From the NCBI GenBank assembly GCA_026225435.1, contig JAMFST010000342.1, positions 1-11,346 on the forward strand: a stretch of 11,346 nucleotides of DNA. The letters run 5' to 3'. Numbering within the stretch: position 1 is the first letter of the stretch; every line of letters starts with the position of its first letter. Positions 1,248-9,808 of this stretch are shown piece after piece. The notes beneath the pieces are model-generated. The model was not told the DNA's origin. It worked only from the letters and a program-made list of their open reading frames with translations, and ran no database searches. A program made the translations under genes and the position numbers. Source of the DNA: Labilithrix luteola (lineage in GTDB: Bacteria; Myxococcota_A; Polyangia; Polyangiales; Polyangiaceae).

Positions 1248-3731
1248 ATGACCGAGCCGTTGCTGACGCCGAGCGCCCCTTTGCTACCGTATGCGCCGGA
1301 GAAGCCGTCCTCGCCCCAGCAGGAAGGGCGGGCCACGCATCCGTCCACTCCCCCGCCTTCGATGCCCCCCGCTCCGCCGTCGGTCTCGTCAGGTGCCGCG
1401 CCGCCCACCCTGGCCGTGCCTCCGAGCGGAGCGACGACGCCGCTGCCGACCGCCGTGAGCACCACCGTGGCGGCGACCACCGGCGGCACCGTCGCTCCTC
1501 CGGCAACCAACGCCTATGCCGGCCTCGGCGACTCGCCCGATCTGCGCGCTTCGTCGCTGTACATCAACCGCGAGCTGTCCTGGCTGGAGTTCAACGCGCG
1601 CGTCCTCTCCGAGGCGGAGAGCGACGCCGTGCCGCTGCTCGAGCGGCTCAAGTTCATGTCGATCTTCTCGTCGAACCTCGACGAGTTCTTCATGGTGCGG
1701 CTCGCCGGGTTGAAGCAGCAGCTCACCGGTGAGGTCGGCGAGATCCCGCCCGATGGGATGACCGTGAGCGAGCAGCTCAACGCCATCAGCAACCGGGTGC
1801 ACGAGCTGGCGGCGCGGCAGGACCAGAGCCTGCGCACGGTGCTCTTGCCCAGGCTCGCCGAGCTGGGGAACGTGCTGGTGAAGCCGGAGCGGCTCGGTCC
1901 CGAGGCGCTCGCCGCGCTCGACAAGCGCTTCCACGAGGAGGTGTTCCCCATCCTCACGCCCATCGCCATCGACCCGGGGCACCCCTTCCCTCACCTGCGG
2001 AACAAGAGCCTCAACCTCGGCGTGATGTTCATGCGCGAGGGGCAGCTGGAGGCCGGCTTCGGCGTCGTGCAGGTGCCGATGATGCTACCGCGCCTCCTCG
2101 AGGTGACCGGGCTGAAGTCGGCCGACGGCTCGGTGGCGCGGCACGCGTACGTGCTCCTCGAGGACCTCATCGCGCGCCACGTGGAGACCATCTTCCCTGG
2201 CGTGCGGCAGAAGGGCGTCTACACCTTCCGCGTCACGCGCAACTTCGACCTCGAGATCGACGAGGAGGAGGGGCAGGACCTCCTGCAGACGATCCAGCAG
2301 GAGCTGCGGCGGCGCGAGCGCGGCAACGCCGTGCGCCTGGAAGTGACCGGCGATCCGACGCCGGCGTCGCTGGCCAAGCTGGTGAAGGCGCTCAAGCTCG
2401 AGTCGGAGCGCGACGTCTACCGCTCGACCGGCGTGCTCAACGTGTCCGACCTGATGACCATCTACGCGCGCGACGATCGCCGCGAGCTGCACGACGAGCC
2501 GGCGGTGCCGCTGCCGGTGGCGATCCTGCGCGACTCGGAGGACGTCTTCGCCACCCTGCGCGAGGCGGACGTCCTCGTGCACCAGCCGTACGAGTCGTTC
2601 GACAGCCTGGTCGATCTCATCACCCGCGCGGCCGACGATCCCGACGTCCTCGCCATCAAGCAGACGCTGTATCGCGCCGGCGGCGACTCGCCGATCGTGA
2701 AGGCGCTGGCTCGCGCAGCCGAGTCGGGCAAGCAGGTGACGGCGATCGTCGAGCTGAAGGCGCGCTTCGACGAGGAGTCGCACATCGTCTGGGCGCGCAC
2801 CCTCGAGCAGAGCGGCGTGCACGTGGTCTACGGCCTCCTCGGGTTGAAGACGCACGCCAAGTGCCTCCTCATCATCCGCCGGGAGAAGAACGGCCTGCGG
2901 CGCTACGTGCACCTGTCGACCGGCAACTACAACCCGTCGACCGCGCGCCTGTACACCGACTTCTCCATCCTCTCGGCGCGCCCCAACCTGGGCGAGGACG
3001 CCTCGTCGCTCTTCAACTTGCTCACCGGGTACAGCGCACCGCCCAAGTGGAACTCGCTGGTCGTCGCGCCGCTCGGTCTGCACGAGGCGGTGCTCGGGCT
3101 CATCGCCCGCGAGGCGGAGCACGCGCGCCAGGGGCGGCCGGCGAAGATCGTCGCCAAGATGAACGCGCTCGTCGACGAGGACGTCATCGAGGCGCTCTAC
3201 CGCGCGTCGCAGGCGGGGGTGAAGATCACGCTGCTCATTCGCGGCATCTGCTGCCTGCGCCCCGGCATCCCCGGCATCAGCGAGACCATCATCGTGCGCG
3301 CGCTGGTCGACCGGTACCTCGAGCACGGGCGCGTCTTCCAGTTCGCCAACGGCGGCAAGGACGAGGTGTACCTGGCCAGCGCCGACTGGATGCCGCGTAA
3401 CTTCCACCGCCGGGTCGAGGTGATGGTGCCCATCGAGGACAACGCCGTCCGCCAGCGGCTCATCGACTGCCTCGATCTCACCGCCGCCGACAACGTGAAG
3501 TCGTGGGACCTGCAGGCCGACGGCAGCTACGTGCGCGTGCAGCCCAAGCCGGGGGCGCCGCAGCTGCGCAGCCAGACCAAGCTCCTCGAGCTCGCCCGCA
3601 GCACGCTCAAGGGGGCCGAGGCGGCGGCGCGTCCGTCGGCGCGCTTCCACATGGCGCTCACCGCGCAGCGCTCCCCCTTCGAGGGGAAGCTGCCCAAGGC
3701 CAAGACGCGGCGGGAACGGAACAAGGCATGA
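1248..3731 (+). CDS. ppk1: Polyphosphate kinase 1 with proline-rich N-terminal extension
   Basis: This enzyme reversibly transfers the gamma-phosphate of ATP to inorganic polyphosphate. The chain is 827 residues, against 688 in E. coli. The conserved start of the family (LYINRELSWLEFN) appears only at residue 104. The two histidines of the active site align well: H536 in THAK (the autophosphorylated residue, E. coli H435) and H693 in LEHGR (E. coli H592). Their spacing of 157 matches E. coli exactly. Using that offset, the four domains lie roughly at 103-207 (N), 208-422 (H), 423-603 (C1) and 604-788 (C2). Other signatures are HLSTGNYN and SADWMPRN. Residues 1-100 are low-complexity Pro/Ala/Thr/Ser, and a basic tail of about 40 residues ends the protein. 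An in-frame TAG at 1239-1241 makes the ATG at 1248 the first possible start. AAAAGGAG at 1224-1231 is the only ribosome site, 16 bases away, which is long. The stop overlaps the start of the next gene. Confidence 0.96.
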   Translation: MTEPLLTPSAPLLPYAPEKPSSPQQEGRATHPSTPPPSMPPAPPSVSSGAAPPTLAVPPSGATTPLPTAVSTTVAATTGGTVAPPATNAYAGLGDSPDLRASSLYINRELSWLEFNARVLSEAESDAVPLLERLKFMSIFSSNLDEFFMVRLAGLKQQLTGEVGEIPPDGMTVSEQLNAISNRVHELAARQDQSLRTVLLPRLAELGNVLVKPERLGPEALAALDKRFHEEVFPILTPIAIDPGHPFPHLRNKSLNLGVMFMREGQLEAGFGVVQVPMMLPRLLEVTGLKSADGSVARHAYVLLEDLIARHVETIFPGVRQKGVYTFRVTRNFDLEIDEEEGQDLLQTIQQELRRRERGNAVRLEVTGDPTPASLAKLVKALKLESERDVYRSTGVLNVSDLMTIYARDDRRELHDEPAVPLPVAILRDSEDVFATLREADVLVHQPYESFDSLVDLITRAADDPDVLAIKQTLYRAGGDSPIVKALARAAESGKQVTAIVELKARFDEESHIVWARTLEQSGVHVVYGLLGLKTHAKCLLIIRREKNGLRRYVHLSTGNYNPSTARLYTDFSILSARPNLGEDASSLFNLLTGYSAPPKWNSLVVAPLGLHEAVLGLIAREAEHARQGRPAKIVAKMNALVDEDVIEALYRASQAGVKITLLIRGICCLRPGIPGISETIIVRALVDRYLEHGRVFQFANGGKDEVYLASADWMPRNFHRRVEVMVPIEDNAVRQRLIDCLDLTAADNVKSWDLQADGSYVRVQPKPGAPQLRSQTKLLELARSTLKGAEAAARPSARFHMALTAQRSPFEGKLPKAKTRRERNKA

Positions 3732-4291
3732 GGAGCATGACGAGACGCGCGGGTGTGCTCCTCGGAGCGGGGCTAGCTCTCTTCGCAAGCGGCTGCGCTC
3801 ACGATCATCCGGCGGCGGCGCCCACACGGGACGTCGCCGGGCTGGAGGCGCGGGTCGAGCGTACGAGCCAAGGGCTGCGCACCTGGCAGCTGGTGTTCGC
3901 GCCGCACACCGATCCGGTGGCGGTGCTGAGCGAGTTCCTCCTCGCCAACCACGTGCAATATGCAAGCTACTACGGCATCGGCGCCTGCGAGAGCGCGACG
4001 TTCGCCGCCTTCGATCCCGCCATCAAAGGCTACACGCCGATGGCGCACGCCGAGCAGATGGAGATCCTGACCTTCACCGGCGAGTCGAGCTGGATGGACG
4101 GCAAGCCGCTCCTGCACACGCACGCGACCTTCGGGAAGCTCGACGGAGCTGCGCTCGGCGGCCACGTGCTGGCAGTGAAGGTGTATCCGACGCTGGAGCT
4201 GGTGTTGACCGAGGGCTCGTCGCCGATCGCGCGCGGCCCGGACCCGTCGGGCGCCAAGCTGATGAAGCTCGATCAGCCGGTCCAGAGGTAG
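3728..4291 (+). CDS. Exported PPC/DUF296-domain lipoprotein coupled to ppk1
   Basis: The ATG at 3728 overlaps the ppk1 stop (ATGA), so the two are probably translated from one mRNA; a second ATG at 3737 is possible. The 187-residue product begins with basic residues and a hydrophobic stretch ending LFASGC. This is a plausible lipobox, although Ala at -3 is less usual than Leu, and would give a lipid-anchored protein. The rest resembles the PPC domain (DUF296, 'plants and prokaryotes conserved'). It has a YYGIGACESATFAAFD segment and the histidine set H130-T-H132 and GGH at H146, which bind metal in bacterial PPC structures. PPC proteins form trimers; in plants they are joined to AT-hooks and bind DNA. 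The bacterial function is poorly known and most copies are cytosolic, so an exported copy is unusual. A role in polyphosphate or phosphate handling is only suggested by the coupling. The 3' end overlaps the opposite-strand gene by 19 bases. Confidence 0.85.
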   Translation: MRSMTRRAGVLLGAGLALFASGCAHDHPAAAPTRDVAGLEARVERTSQGLRTWQLVFAPHTDPVAVLSEFLLANHVQYASYYGIGACESATFAAFDPAIKGYTPMAHAEQMEILTFTGESSWMDGKPLLHTHATFGKLDGAALGGHVLAVKVYPTLELVLTEGSSPIARGPDPSGAKLMKLDQPVQR

Positions 4292-5640
4292 GGGCCGACG
4301 TAGCTGCCGGCGACGGCGCCGACGATCCCGACCGCCACGACGATCAGCGTGGAGACGGTGACGCGGCGGCTCAGCGATCGTGATCGCGAGAGGCGGTGGA
4401 CGACGCCGATGTTGATGATGGCGCTGGCGAGCGAGGCGAGCACGGCGCCGATGCCGGCGACGTACGGCGCGACCTTCCCGGCGGCGGCGAGCGAGCCGGC
4501 CGAAGCGACCGACGACGCGCTCGAGACGAGCCCGCCCACGACGCTGACGGCGTAGAAGCCGCCGCGGCCGAGCTGGGCCTGGGCGAGCGTGCCCACCACC
4601 TGCAGGACGAGGAAGATGGCGCCGAACTTGAGCGCCGAGGCGAGCGAGAACGGTGAGGTGAGCGTCGAGGAGGCGACGGGCGACGGCGCGAGCGCGGGAG
4701 CCACGGGAGCGGCTGGTGCAGACGGCGGCTCGGGCGGGCCGACCGGAGGCGCGCTCGCCCGGCGCGAGGTGAACACCAGGGCGAGCGTGGTCACGAGCAT
4801 GAGGGCGAGCGAGATGGTGCTGCCGAGGAAGGCGCCGGGCGAGAGCAGCGCCAGGAGCACCGCGTTGCGCCCCACCATGGCGATGACCGAGAGGAGCACC
4901 CCGCGGTAGGCGACGTCGGCGAAGCCCGGCGAGGCGGCGACCCGCGTGGCCAGCTCGGTGACGGTGACCGTGCTGTTCACCAGGCCGCCGAGGAAGCCGG
5001 CGTACTCGACGCCGCGGGCGCCGAAGATCTTCCACAGCAGGTAGTTGACGAAGCCGATGCCGGCGATGAGCAGGACGGTGATCCAGGCCTCGCGCGGGAC
5101 GATGAGCCCGAAGCGGTCGATCGGCGTGGCCGGCAGGATCGGGTAGATGGCGAAAGCGAGGACGGCCAGCAGGATGGCCGAGCGCAGCTCCGCCTCGGTG
5201 AGCTTGTGGCTGAAGCCGGCCAGGCGTTCCTTGGAGGCGAGCAGCCAGGCGGACACCACGCCGACCGCCGCCGGAGTCACGGTGTGACCGAGACCGCAGA
5301 GGATGCCGCACATGGCCGCGACGAGGAGCGCCGCCGAGGTGGTCAGCTCCAGCTGCGGCCTGTCGCTCGCCCGCATCGACTGCAGGTTGAGGAAGACGAC
5401 GAGCACCGTGACCCCGCCGAAGGCGGCGATGGCGTACGGCAGCCCGAGCATCCCGCCGATGCCGCAGAGGAGAGCGGCGAAGCCGAAGGTGCGCAGACCT
5501 GCTTCTTTGCCCCGCCACTCTCGCTCGATCCCCACGAACAGACCGATCGCGAGCGCCAGCGTCAGCCGCATCAGGCTCGCCAGCGGCACCCAGGTCAGGG
5601 TCGCCGGGACCGAAGGTCCAGGATCGGGAAGGGGCTGCAT
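4273..5640 (-). CDS. MgtC/SapB-DUF4010 family integral membrane protein
   Basis: A 455-residue, very hydrophobic protein with about eleven likely membrane segments. Near the N-terminus, GLFVGIEREWRGKEAGLRTF (residues about 33-52) matches the signature loop of the MgtC/SapB family, with the conserved Glu-Arg and Gly-Leu-Arg-Thr. The following region, with GIGFVNYLLWK, GLVNSTVTV and GGLVSSASSVAS, fits the DUF4010 half found in the longer members. A Pro/Ala-rich hydrophilic linker at about residues 292-325 (4660-4770) separates two membrane blocks. MgtC itself helps pathogens survive low magnesium and inhibits ATP synthase; the DUF4010 members have no settled function, so transport is only a guess. 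The ATG at 5638-5640 is the first convincing start, with a weak purine-rich site (GGCGAG) upstream. It is divergent from the PilZ-like gene and convergent, with overlap, to the lipoprotein gene. Confidence 0.87.
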   Translation of the reverse strand: MQPLPDPGPSVPATLTWVPLASLMRLTLALAIGLFVGIEREWRGKEAGLRTFGFAALLCGIGGMLGLPYAIAAFGGVTVLVVFLNLQSMRASDRPQLELTTSAALLVAAMCGILCGLGHTVTPAAVGVVSAWLLASKERLAGFSHKLTEAELRSAILLAVLAFAIYPILPATPIDRFGLIVPREAWITVLLIAGIGFVNYLLWKIFGARGVEYAGFLGGLVNSTVTVTELATRVAASPGFADVAYRGVLLSVIAMVGRNAVLLALLSPGAFLGSTISLALMLVTTLALVFTSRRASAPPVGPPEPPSAPAAPVAPALAPSPVASSTLTSPFSLASALKFGAIFLVLQVVGTLAQAQLGRGGFYAVSVVGGLVSSASSVASAGSLAAAGKVAPYVAGIGAVLASLASAIINIGVVHRLSRSRSLSRRVTVSTLIVVAVGIVGAVAGSYVGPYLWTG

Positions 5641-5759: not shown

Positions 5760-6752
5760 ATGCTCGCCATCATGTCGAACGCGACGAACGCCACCGGTGC
5801 CTCGGCCGTGCATGCGGCCAAGAGCGCGCGCGAGGAGCTGGCCCAGGGTCTGAATGCGCTCCAGGGGGACGCGAACGTCCCGCCGCAGCTCCTCGAGCTG
5901 GCTGCCCCCATTGCCCAGTCGATGGGCGCCCTGCACCAGATCGAGCGCTCGGGAGGCAACGAGCTCAAGCCGCACGCCGACGTGGCGCTGTCGAACGTGC
6001 GCGCGGCGCTGGCCCAGCTGCAGGCGCAGCCGCCGTCGCACCCGGCGGTCGCGCGGGCGATGGAGGCGGTGGCCGCGTCGCTCGGGCACGTGCACGCGCT
6101 GTCGAAGATGGCCGCGCAGTCCGCCGCTCCGCAGGCCGCGCCGGTTCCGCAGCAGCAGGTGCAGCCGGCCTTCGCGGCGACGATCGCCGAGCCGAGCACG
6201 CGTCCGCGGTCGTCGCACCCGCAGGCGTACAGCCCGTCGAGCTTCGGGGGGAACGGCTTTCCGCCGCCGGCCGCCACGGTCAACCAGCCGCCGTACACCC
6301 CGCCTCCGCAAGCCGCCGCGCCTGCGCCTGCCCACCGCGAGCCGACCCCCGCGGCGGCGGCGGTCCCGGCGACTCCCCTGCGTGCCTCCAACCCCGTCCC
6401 CGCTCCGCCGCTCGAGAAGGGGCTGCAGCTGGTGAACGCCGACCTCGGCGCCCACAGCCCGACCAACTTCTACAAGGGGCTCGCCGGCAACGACATCATC
6501 GACCACGGCGGTCTCTTCGTCTCCACGTACATGGTCCCGAAGATCGGGACGAATGTACGTTTGAAGGTCTCGCTCCCCGGCGGCTACGAGTTCGAGGCCA
6601 ACGGCACCGTGCGCTGGGCGCGCGAGGCGGCCGGCCCGGGCGACGCGCCTCCGGGCTTCGGGGCGCAGTTCACGCAGATCTCCCCGGAAGCGCGCCAGCT
6701 CGTTTACCGCTACGTCCGCAATCGCGAGCCGCTCTTCTACGACGACCTGTGA
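5760..6752 (+). CDS. PilZ-like (TIGR02266-type) domain protein with helical N-terminal region
   Basis: The product is 330 residues. Residues 1-120 are Ala/Leu/Gln-rich and look all-helical, possibly a helical bundle. Residues 120-220 are a Pro/Ala/Gln linker. Residues 228-330 form a PilZ-like beta-barrel: DHGGLFVST at D248 corresponds to the D-x-S-x-x-G segment, followed by NGTVRW (W286), PPGFGAQF and a closing helix. The usual c-di-GMP contact RxxxR is absent; the equivalent stretch reads SPTNFYKG. The Ser of the second motif is also replaced. This fits the PilZ-related domain amplified in Myxococcus (TIGR02266), whose members often do not bind c-di-GMP. It may act as a protein-protein module in signalling or motility, which is inference. 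No signal peptide is visible, so it is probably cytosolic. Start choice is uncertain: ATG 5760 or ATG 5772. The only Shine-Dalgarno-like run (AAAGGGGAG, 5724-5732) is too far from both. Confidence 0.8.
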   Translation: MLAIMSNATNATGASAVHAAKSAREELAQGLNALQGDANVPPQLLELAAPIAQSMGALHQIERSGGNELKPHADVALSNVRAALAQLQAQPPSHPAVARAMEAVAASLGHVHALSKMAAQSAAPQAAPVPQQQVQPAFAATIAEPSTRPRSSHPQAYSPSSFGGNGFPPPAATVNQPPYTPPPQAAAPAPAHREPTPAAAAVPATPLRASNPVPAPPLEKGLQLVNADLGAHSPTNFYKGLAGNDIIDHGGLFVSTYMVPKIGTNVRLKVSLPGGYEFEANGTVRWAREAAGPGDAPPGFGAQFTQISPEARQLVYRYVRNREPLFYDDL

Positions 6753-6832: not shown

Positions 6833-9808
6833 GTGCCGAGAGCCACTCTCCATCGCCTCGTTCTGGTCGTTGCGATCGTGGTTGCGCTCACGTGCGCTCG
6901 CACCGCGCACGCGGTGAGCTGGCCGTACCTGAAGTGGCACACGATCGAGACGGCGCACTTTCGTATCAACTACTACTCGGGTGAGGAGGAGATCGCCCAG
7001 ACGGTGGGGCGGCTCGCCGAGGACATCCACGGGCGGCTGGCGCCGGCGGTCGGCTGGGCGCCGAAGAGCCGCACCGAGATCCTCCTGACCGACGACTCGG
7101 ACACCGCCAACGGCTCGGCGACCGCGCTGCCGTACAACGCCATCCGCCTGTACGTGACGGCGCCCGACGACCTGTCGCCGCTGGGCGACGTCGACGAGTG
7201 GTACCAGGAGCTGGTCACCCACGAGTACACGCACATCCTCCACACCGATCACATCCACGGCATCCCCGCCTGGGTGAACGCGGTGCTCGGCAAGACGCTC
7301 GCCCCCAACCAGACCGAGCCGCACTGGATGCTCGAGGGGCTCGCCGTCTTCGAGGAGAGCGATCTCACCAGCGGCGGGCGCCTGCGCTCCTCCGAGTGGA
7401 ACATGTTCATGCGGGCCGACGTGCTCGAGGACAACGTGGCGACGCTCGACCAGTTCTCCAACGACGTGCGGCGCTGGCCGCAGGGGAACATCTGGTACCT
7501 GTACGGCTCGTTCTTCATGCGCTGGATCGCCGACACCTACGGGTCGGAGGCGATCCGGAAGATGATCGACGACTACGGCGGGCAGATCGTGCCCTACGGG
7601 ATCAACCGCTCCACGCGGCGGGCGACCGGCAAGACCTTCGAGGAGCTCTACGATCTCTGGATCGCCGACCTGAAGAAGGAGGTGAAGAGCGAGGTCGAAG
7701 GCATCCGCTCGCGCGGGCTGCGCGAAGGAAAGCGCATCACCTTCGGCGGGCAGACGGTGCAACACCCGCGCTTCATCCCCGAGGGGACCTGGCCGGGTCG
7801 CGCCGGCGATGTCCTCTTCTACGAGGACGACGCCCACACCACCGCCGGCCTCTACGCCCTCGACATGAGCGGCAAGCGCACCAGGCCGGGAGCGGCGCCG
7901 GAGAAGCAGCTGATGGCCCGCACCGCCACGGTCTCGGCGCCGACCTGGGATCCCGACGGGCGGCTGTACTTCGACAGCGCCGACATCGTGCACAACATCT
8001 TCGCCTACAACGATCTGGCGACGATGGCCGCCGGCGAGATCGGCGTGCGCGGGCTCGAAGGGAACCGGCAGCGGCTCACCGAGGGGGCGCGCGCCTCCGA
8101 TCCCGACGTCTCCCCCGACGGGCGACAGATCGTCTTCTGCACCAACCACCGCGGCACGCGCTACCTGCAGATCGCCGACGTCGATCACTCGGCTGGCGAC
8201 GGCACCGCGCCGAAGCTCACCAACGTCCACGCGCTGGTGAAGAGCTACCGCTTCGAGCAGGCCTACGCGCCGCGCTGGTCACCCGACGGCAAGACCATCG
8301 CCTACAGCGTCTGGGTGAAGGGCGGCTACCGCGACATCCGCCTGGTCGACGTCGCCACCGGCACCGTGCGCAACGTCACCTCCGACCGCGCCATCGAGAG
8401 CGGCCCGTCGTTCTCGAAGGATGGCCGCTGGCTCTTCTTCCACTCGGATCGTACCAGCGTCACCAACGTCTACGCCTTCGAGCTCGCCAGCGGGCGGCTG
8501 ATGCAGGTGACCAACGTGCTCGGCGGCGCCTACCAGCCGGAGACCTCGCCGGACGGCAAGACGCTGGTGTACGTCGGCTACACGCACGAGGGCTTCGATC
8601 TGTTCTCCATGCCGCTCGACGAGAGCAAGTGGACGGTGGCCGAGCCCTACTCCGACGTCCGCCCCGCGCCGCCGCCGGAGCCGCACGCGCGTACCTTCCC
8701 GGTGCAGGACTACTCGCCGTTCGAGACGCTGCGCCCGCGCAAGTACAGCGTCATGATCAACCAGGGGGACTTCGGCTACCAGACGACCCTCACCGTCAGC
8801 GGGACCGATCTGGCGTCGTGGCACTCGCTCACCGGCAACATCACCTCGGCCTTCGACAAGCCCGGCTTCCAGGGTGCGCTCAGCTACACGTACAGCCGCC
8901 TCCCCTTCGACGTGGGGCTCGGGGTGTATCGCTCGCTCTCCGCCCGCGGAGGGTTCGGTGCCGGGTCTTTCCAGCCGACGGTGACGCAGGAATCGGTCGG
9001 GGGGAGCGCGTCGATCACCGTCCCCATCAACCATCCGTTCGACTCGCAGAGCGTCAACCTGACATACAGCTTCCAGCGCGTCGGCTTCGACTTCCAGCTG
9101 CCGAAGAGCGCCTTCGATCCGTACAACATCCCCACCATCCCCACGGCGGGCTTCGTCGGCGCGCTGCACCTCGGCTGGTCGTACTCGAGCGTCGAGCAGT
9201 ACGTGTGGAGCGTCTCGCCCGAGCGCGGGCTCGGCCTCAGCGCCAACTTCGATCTCACCGACCCGGCGCTGGCGAGCGACTACCATGGGTACGACGCCAG
9301 CGTGAACGCGCAGTTCTACCAGCCGATGCCCTGGCTGCGGAACCACGTGCTCGCGCTCCACGCCGGGGGAGGCGTGAGCGGCGGCGACTTCCCCGGGCGG
9401 GGCGCCTTCTACGTCGGCGGCTTCGTCGACGAGCCGGTCATCACTTCTGTACAAAATACCATCGTGCAGGGGGGCATCCTCCTGCGCGGCTACCCCGTGG
9501 TCGCCGAGAGCGGCGCGTACTACGCGCTCTTCAACGCCGAGTACCGCTTCCCCATCCTCAACTTCGAGCACGGGCCGTCGACGCTGCCGATCTTCCTCCA
9601 GCGGGTGAACGGGAACCTGTTCGTCGACTACGGCAGCGCGTTCAACACGCCGGAGACCGCGGAGTTCAAGACGGGCAGCGGCGCCGAGCTGTGGTTCGAC
9701 TTCACCTTCGGGTACGTGATCGACATGACCTTCCGCCTCGGGTACGCCCACGGCTGGGCGAGCGAAGGGCTCGACAAGGTCTACTTCGTCGCCGCAGTCC
9801 CCTTCTGA
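6833..9808 (+). CDS. Exported metallopeptidase - beta-propeller - Omp85-like barrel fusion
   Basis: A 991-residue protein with a clear signal peptide (cut after ARTAHA, about residue 27), starting at GTG 6833; no closer in-frame alternative is seen upstream. Module 1 (about 28-285) is a gluzincin-like peptidase: HEYTH at H130-H134 gives the two histidine ligands and the catalytic Glu, and E168 in LEGLAVFEE is the likely third ligand, as in peptidase MA-like enzymes. Module 2 (about 300-610) has six recognisable PD40/TolB-like propeller blades, with SPDG motifs at S427, S483 and S572 and variants between. Module 3 (about 640-991) looks like an Omp85-superfamily barrel: alternating strands, RGY at R885-Y887, then FNAEYRFPI, and a terminal Phe typical of outer-membrane barrels. 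All key peptidase residues are present, so it may be active, facing either the periplasm or the surface. No substrate can be named. It appears to stand alone, and its 3' end faces a convergent lipoprotein gene. Confidence 0.88.
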   Translation: MPRATLHRLVLVVAIVVALTCARTAHAVSWPYLKWHTIETAHFRINYYSGEEEIAQTVGRLAEDIHGRLAPAVGWAPKSRTEILLTDDSDTANGSATALPYNAIRLYVTAPDDLSPLGDVDEWYQELVTHEYTHILHTDHIHGIPAWVNAVLGKTLAPNQTEPHWMLEGLAVFEESDLTSGGRLRSSEWNMFMRADVLEDNVATLDQFSNDVRRWPQGNIWYLYGSFFMRWIADTYGSEAIRKMIDDYGGQIVPYGINRSTRRATGKTFEELYDLWIADLKKEVKSEVEGIRSRGLREGKRITFGGQTVQHPRFIPEGTWPGRAGDVLFYEDDAHTTAGLYALDMSGKRTRPGAAPEKQLMARTATVSAPTWDPDGRLYFDSADIVHNIFAYNDLATMAAGEIGVRGLEGNRQRLTEGARASDPDVSPDGRQIVFCTNHRGTRYLQIADVDHSAGDGTAPKLTNVHALVKSYRFEQAYAPRWSPDGKTIAYSVWVKGGYRDIRLVDVATGTVRNVTSDRAIESGPSFSKDGRWLFFHSDRTSVTNVYAFELASGRLMQVTNVLGGAYQPETSPDGKTLVYVGYTHEGFDLFSMPLDESKWTVAEPYSDVRPAPPPEPHARTFPVQDYSPFETLRPRKYSVMINQGDFGYQTTLTVSGTDLASWHSLTGNITSAFDKPGFQGALSYTYSRLPFDVGLGVYRSLSARGGFGAGSFQPTVTQESVGGSASITVPINHPFDSQSVNLTYSFQRVGFDFQLPKSAFDPYNIPTIPTAGFVGALHLGWSYSSVEQYVWSVSPERGLGLSANFDLTDPALASDYHGYDASVNAQFYQPMPWLRNHVLALHAGGGVSGGDFPGRGAFYVGGFVDEPVITSVQNTIVQGGILLRGYPVVAESGAYYALFNAEYRFPILNFEHGPSTLPIFLQRVNGNLFVDYGSAFNTPETAEFKTGSGAELWFDFTFGYVIDMTFRLGYAHGWASEGLDKVYFVAAVPF

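Follow-up and report, generated by a model that had tools for sequence, protein, structure and literature searches.

A putative zinc peptidase, a TolB-like propeller and an Omp85-type barrel in a single protein chain of Labilithrix luteola and its relatives

The window analysed here, a stretch of 11,346 nucleotides from Labilithrix luteola, codes for a protein in which a gluzincin-like peptidase domain is followed by a predicted TolB-like propeller and a predicted Omp85-type barrel, and on the evidence of sequence and structure prediction this architecture of three folds is shared across phyla (Table 1). We propose that the protein anchors itself in the outer membrane, with the peptidase and the propeller in the periplasm, and that it most probably cuts envelope proteins, a reading to which we give even chances. 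An anchored periplasmic protease is favoured because of the peptidase fold and its ligands, their conservation, the likeness to BamA and TolB, the paralogues that carry an OmpA domain and the presence of a separate, likely BamA in the same genome.

Table 1. Position of the gene, of its domains and motifs, and of its two flanking genes in the window
Feature	Residues	Position	Strand	Basis or remark
PilZ-domain protein, 80 bases upstream of the main gene		5760..6752	+	PF07238, E 4.7e-7
Peptidase-propeller-barrel protein, CDS	991 residues	6833..9808	+	GTG start, stop 9806-9808; end-to-end relatives
Putative Sec signal peptide, AHA at 25-27	1-27	6833..6913	+	by eye
Gluzincin-like zinc peptidase domain	28-290	6914..7702	+	AlphaFold2, fold matches
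HEYTH: two putative zinc-ligand His and putative catalytic Glu131	130-134	7220..7234	+	roles inferred
Glu168, likely third zinc ligand, in EGLAVFEE motif	168	7334..7336	+	conservation; ligand role inferred
Tyr222, candidate catalytic Tyr	222	7496..7498	+	role inferred from position
TolB-like six-bladed propeller	about 300-605	7730..8647	+
Omp85-type 16-strand barrel	637-991	8741..9805	+
RGY, loop between strands 11 and 12	885-887	9485..9493	+
Exported-looking protein	180 residues	9825..10367	-	no Pfam/NCBIfam match

The Pfam scan of the protein showed PD40 repeats and the Omp85 barrel above their cut-offs. In the structure prediction a 16-stranded BamA-type barrel was found at the C-terminus, and the fold search with the full-length chain showed that the barrel resembles BamA and the propeller resembles TolB. 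The sequence-only reading had described three parts in one chain, had assigned the barrel to the Omp85 class and had named a predicted 16-strand barrel as a check; the anatomy is borne out by the sequence, the predicted folds and the relatives, and the class by the 16 strands, the BamA-like fold and the RGY in the L6 place. This RGY sits at the place of the Omp85 L6 motif RG[FY], and the strand with F930, D932 and G934 resembles the Omp85 FxDxG motif. The matches to the NCBIfam equivalogs of TolB (112.7 bits, cut-off 343.15) and BamA (24.6 bits, cut-off 297.15) are both partial and stay below the cut-offs. The propeller fold and the PD40 repeats are common to TolB and the protein of the window, which has the peptidase where TolB has its N-terminal domain. 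No POTRA was detected in the protein by the Pfam scan (E up to 1), while L176 of the same genome scores both POTRA and Omp85 domains. The host genome gave seven Omp85 matches, the protein of the window among them, and judging from these domains L176 is likely to be its BamA rather than the protein of the window; the main gene itself was found in one place only in the genome search. That the domain order could be an artefact of the assembly or of the reading frame has a practically negligible probability: the source assembly is fragmented (1502 contigs, about 80% complete), but this explanation is already refuted by relatives with long open frames from numerous genomes and phyla, with identities down to about 23%.

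The peptidase was folded alone, since the list from the full-length fold search was filled by propellers and barrels. The AlphaFold2 model of residues 28-300 (pLDDT 91.3, pTM 0.90) returned matches of the M30, M1 and M9 type. A sequence profile of the domain found no PDB sequence at an E better than 0.051, and the domain is placed by fold comparison only. Its fold and the HExxH with a downstream Glu, the putative ligand E168, are those of the gluzincin clan MA(E), and the matches spread over gluzincins such as M30, M1 and M9 with no assignment to a single family. The domain is like M30 (lugdulysin), M1, M9 and M61 in fold, HExxH and downstream Glu, and unlike them in its fusion to a propeller and a barrel and in its score below the gathering cut-off of Peptidase_MA_2 (PF13485; 14.5 against 32.4 bits), a profile that at E up to 1 matches 34 of 66 family members, the best with 1.9e-8. 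The position of Tyr222 matches, as we assume, that of the catalytic Tyr of M1 and M30. Zinc binding and catalysis by the domain are suggested by these residues.

The putative active site was then followed through the relatives. An alignment of 23 close sequences shows no variation at H130, E131, H134 and E168, and these four residues, together with E175, R183 and Y222, are kept in every one of 79 relatives whose loci had not been seeded on a motif. These loci were 80 places chosen from the Myxococcota survey for strong long matches, others being passed over, and 79 of them include the peptidase part, the remaining one being cut off at a contig end. Tyr222 is kept as well in 74 of 74 members of a second set. 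The contig scan was seeded on the patterns EGLA[VI][FY]EE and PDD[LM]SPLGD, and the conservation of E168 is there partly built in. The full comparison comprised 145 non-redundant full-length sequences (154 rows less 4 with incomplete domains and 5 at 90% identity or more) and takes in the protein of the window as well as loci of either kind. HExxH is present in all 145 of these main-lineage sequences; the complete HEYTH...E metal site that had been read from the letters is borne out by this count and by that of E168, and the glutamate of HExxH, whose loss in homologues had been named as a refutation, held in all of these sequences. The mean pairwise identity is 0.392 for the peptidase, 0.317 for the propeller and 0.276 for the barrel, and the columns conserved at 95% or more number 28 of 263, 7 of 306 and 11 of 357, respectively. 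The peptidase is therefore the best-conserved domain, and selection seems to act to preserve catalysis. Between pairs of sequences, identity in any one domain rises with that in the others (Spearman 0.63-0.68), as it should for one unit inherited together.

In the loci collected later, HExxH was found in 15 of 15 from the survey of the phylum of L080 (one being the L080 gene again), in 28 of 30 from the Myxococcota rescoring, where one miss is a piece without the peptidase part (L219) and the other a propeller only (L227), and in 10 of 13 of a further set, where only the propeller matches in L236 and L237 and L233 has lost the motif. L233 is the second copy in genome G103, with an open frame of 764 residues lacking both HExxH and the EG motif, and is likely, from its sequence, a pseudo-peptidase; the same genome has the HEYTH-bearing copy L206. 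Such a copy suggests that the fold can persist without the site, as it would if the domain were a peptide-binding scaffold and an enzyme no longer, but the main lineage shows no exception at HExxH or E168, which is typical of a working site, and we give this explanation very little credence. A longer paralogous group (L228, L229, L230 and L235; 1156-1197 aa) keeps HE[FY][GA]H, and every member shares its Myxococcota genome with a match of the main form. Five long paralogues (L228-L231 and L235) keep HExxH but have, by eye, SGY, AGY or PGY in the position of RGY.

We consider that the peptidase and the propeller would lie on the periplasmic side. In Omp85 proteins the barrel termini face the periplasm and the region N-terminal to the barrel is periplasmic. 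In the long paralogues L231 (genome G003) and L232 (genome G117) the propeller match is split in two by a complete OmpA peptidoglycan-binding domain (E 5.6e-18 and 1.5e-21); both are of family f18 and distant from the window's protein, and they count as one observation. Since the OmpA domain binds periplasmic peptidoglycan, the propeller of these paralogues should be periplasmic, and homology suggests the same side for the protein of the window. A protease displayed on the surface or released through its own barrel, for predation or nutrition for example, had been offered earlier as an alternative and is now disfavoured. It agrees with the M30 and M9 matches of the fold search, as these peptidases are secreted enzymes, but the orientation of the Omp85 termini, the OmpA domain inside the soluble part of the two paralogues and the presence of the family in Gallionella records, a lineage not known to us for predation, argue against it and make it very unlikely. 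The precedent of PlpD points the same way: this Omp85 protein was once thought to export the enzyme that its barrel carries, a claim overturned when the enzyme was shown to be periplasmic (PMC11116518, available part).

The anchored periplasmic protease could work as follows. Its own barrel would anchor the protein in the outer membrane and hold the device in place, the propeller would receive or screen unfolded or stalled chains, and the peptidase would cleave them at the inner face of the outer membrane, where the BamA-type barrel may offer a lateral gate. Quality control or maturation would be the task, with the substrates drawn from such chains. According to the available text of PMC13067283, barrel proteins that have stalled at a late stage are degraded at BAM in E. 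coli by the separate protease BepA; two more zinc proteases, YcaL and LoiP, have been linked to the biogenesis of barrels, and the propeller BamB is attached to BamA. The protein resembles the BAM complex in its BamA-like barrel with the L6 motif, in having a propeller, as BamB is, though TolB-like here, and in a putative zinc protease at the outer membrane, as BepA is, and differs from it in being one chain without POTRA that exists beside a POTRA-bearing Omp85; its peptidase also differs from BepA in giving gluzincin matches (M30, M1), with no M48 among the matches listed. A bolder version, which we judge unlikely, would make it a one-chain machine for outer-membrane assembly and proof-reading, an ancient combination of a BamA-type gated barrel, a BamB/TolB-type docking propeller and a BepA-type protease that serves special outer-membrane or secreted clients without POTRA. 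Against the anchored periplasmic protease count the PilZ and exported-protein neighbours, the patchy occurrence, L233 without HExxH and the altered RGY of five paralogues.

The barrel might instead be an active Omp85 insertase or translocase with a client or clients of its own, the peptidase trimming cargo during export or assembly. This is rather improbable in our estimate. The 16 strands are kept, L6 reads RG[YF] in 140 of the 145 non-redundant full-length sequences and the strand of F930, D932 and G934 is like FxDxG, but the barrel is the least conserved domain, POTRA is lacking, only about 30 residues link the propeller to the barrel and no cargo gene is evident among the recurrent neighbours. 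Assembly or translocation is given as the general function of Omp85 proteins in the available part of PMC4104836, but in PlpD an Omp85 barrel carries an enzyme that stays unsecreted (PMC11116518, available part).

The architecture is known in part. The superfamily is defined by the barrel, POTRA being usual and not required in the 2014 scheme, and a propeller with an Omp85 barrel forms the WD40-Omp85 subfamily of Heinz and Lithgow (PMC4104836, available part). The protein of the window shares with this subfamily the N-terminal TolB-like propeller, the Omp85 barrel and the lack of POTRA, and by these features it fits there; it differs in the peptidase, of which the available part of the 2014 description makes no mention. 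The architecture can hence be called new only in part, the propeller with the barrel having been listed as early as 2014. The 'Metallo' Omp85 subfamily of the same paper (PMC4104836, available part) rests on PF00149, a different domain. PlpD is alike in having its enzyme N-terminal to an Omp85 barrel and unlike in being a phospholipase with one POTRA and no propeller. In the openly licensed full-text literature, we found no paper on the peptidase-propeller-Omp85 combination, and WD40-Omp85 and similar names led only to PMC4104836; as far as we found, the peptidase on this lineage is unremarked there. The available part of a 2024 paper calls WD40-Omp85, with other kinds, not well characterised. 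For M. xanthus, the Omp85 protein MXAN4728 and the TolB protein MXAN5756 are listed (PMC3222651), and no named locus could be tied to the family from the available parts of PMC3222651 and PMC4158809. With an invariant peptidase recognised on it, the WD40-Omp85 lineage is no longer just a structural curiosity but offers an enzyme to test, and the natural fusion can be used to ask how proteolysis couples to the outer membrane.

Judged from the matches, the family appears ancient and widely conserved. In the Myxococcota survey, 276 of 282 genomes gave some match, the weak ones mostly propellers; by hand count, 201 of 282 matched at E 1e-30 or better, 81 weakly or not at all, and within the window's own family the gene is present at this threshold in 21 of 22 genomes. 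Rescoring with a broader alignment was applied to 80 Myxococcota genomes, mostly weak matchers (30 further weak genomes lie outside it), and gave 29 strong and 51 not strong, consistent with the E 1e-30 threshold; among these 51, at least G117 still has a distant paralogue, L232. The locus L080 comes from a Thalassolituus record, and its phylum is hence probably Pseudomonadota; of 299 genomes of that phylum, 18 gave a strong match (E below 1e-90, hand count, seed genome included) and 281 no long relative. The pattern-seeded contig scan added 74 loci, about 60 of which (hand count) match over most of the query, from records that include Myxococcales, Polyangiaceae, Nitrospirae, Gallionella, Gemmatimonadetes, Acidobacteria, Schekmanbacteria, Bdellovibrionales, Oligoflexia, WOR-1 and others; in a few, the Phycisphaerae records among them, only the peptidase part matches. 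Pfam entries PF26549 and PF26550 are precomputed on listed homologues of the protein. That the family is so broad and occurs in nearly all genomes of the window's own family argues for importance to the cell, and the patchy occurrence is ill-suited to an indispensable factor.

The gene neighbourhood was counted in the 165 of 173 loci used in which the gene was located, some genomes being counted twice. The two largest flanking clusters are those of the PilZ protein (28 related ORFs, 27 of them upstream on the same strand) and of the 180-residue exported-looking protein, whose relatives flank the gene in 26 of 165 loci in mixed orientation, and both were seen in relatives of the window. None of the recurrent neighbours in these loci points to a substrate, a cargo or barrel assembly. 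Outside Myxococcota-type records the contexts differ, with other genes in other phyla: in the Nitrosomonadales record L059 the upstream genes are, by eye, a recN-like gene, a small lipoprotein resembling BamE and a dapB-like gene, and nine Gallionella/Nitrosomonadales loci among L053-L068 share the upstream dapB-like gene. The PilZ protein of the window reaches 58 bits with TIGR02266, below the cut-off of 68.7; it has a long Ala/Pro-rich middle, and the usual c-di-GMP motifs look incomplete by eye. Elsewhere in the window, a gene directly after that of a polyphosphate kinase (3728-4291, +) codes for a PCC domain (PF03479, E 5.8e-20) behind an apparent lipoprotein signal peptide, and an exported PCC domain seems unusual; convergent with it lies the gene of a membrane protein with MgtC and DUF4010 (4273-5640, -).
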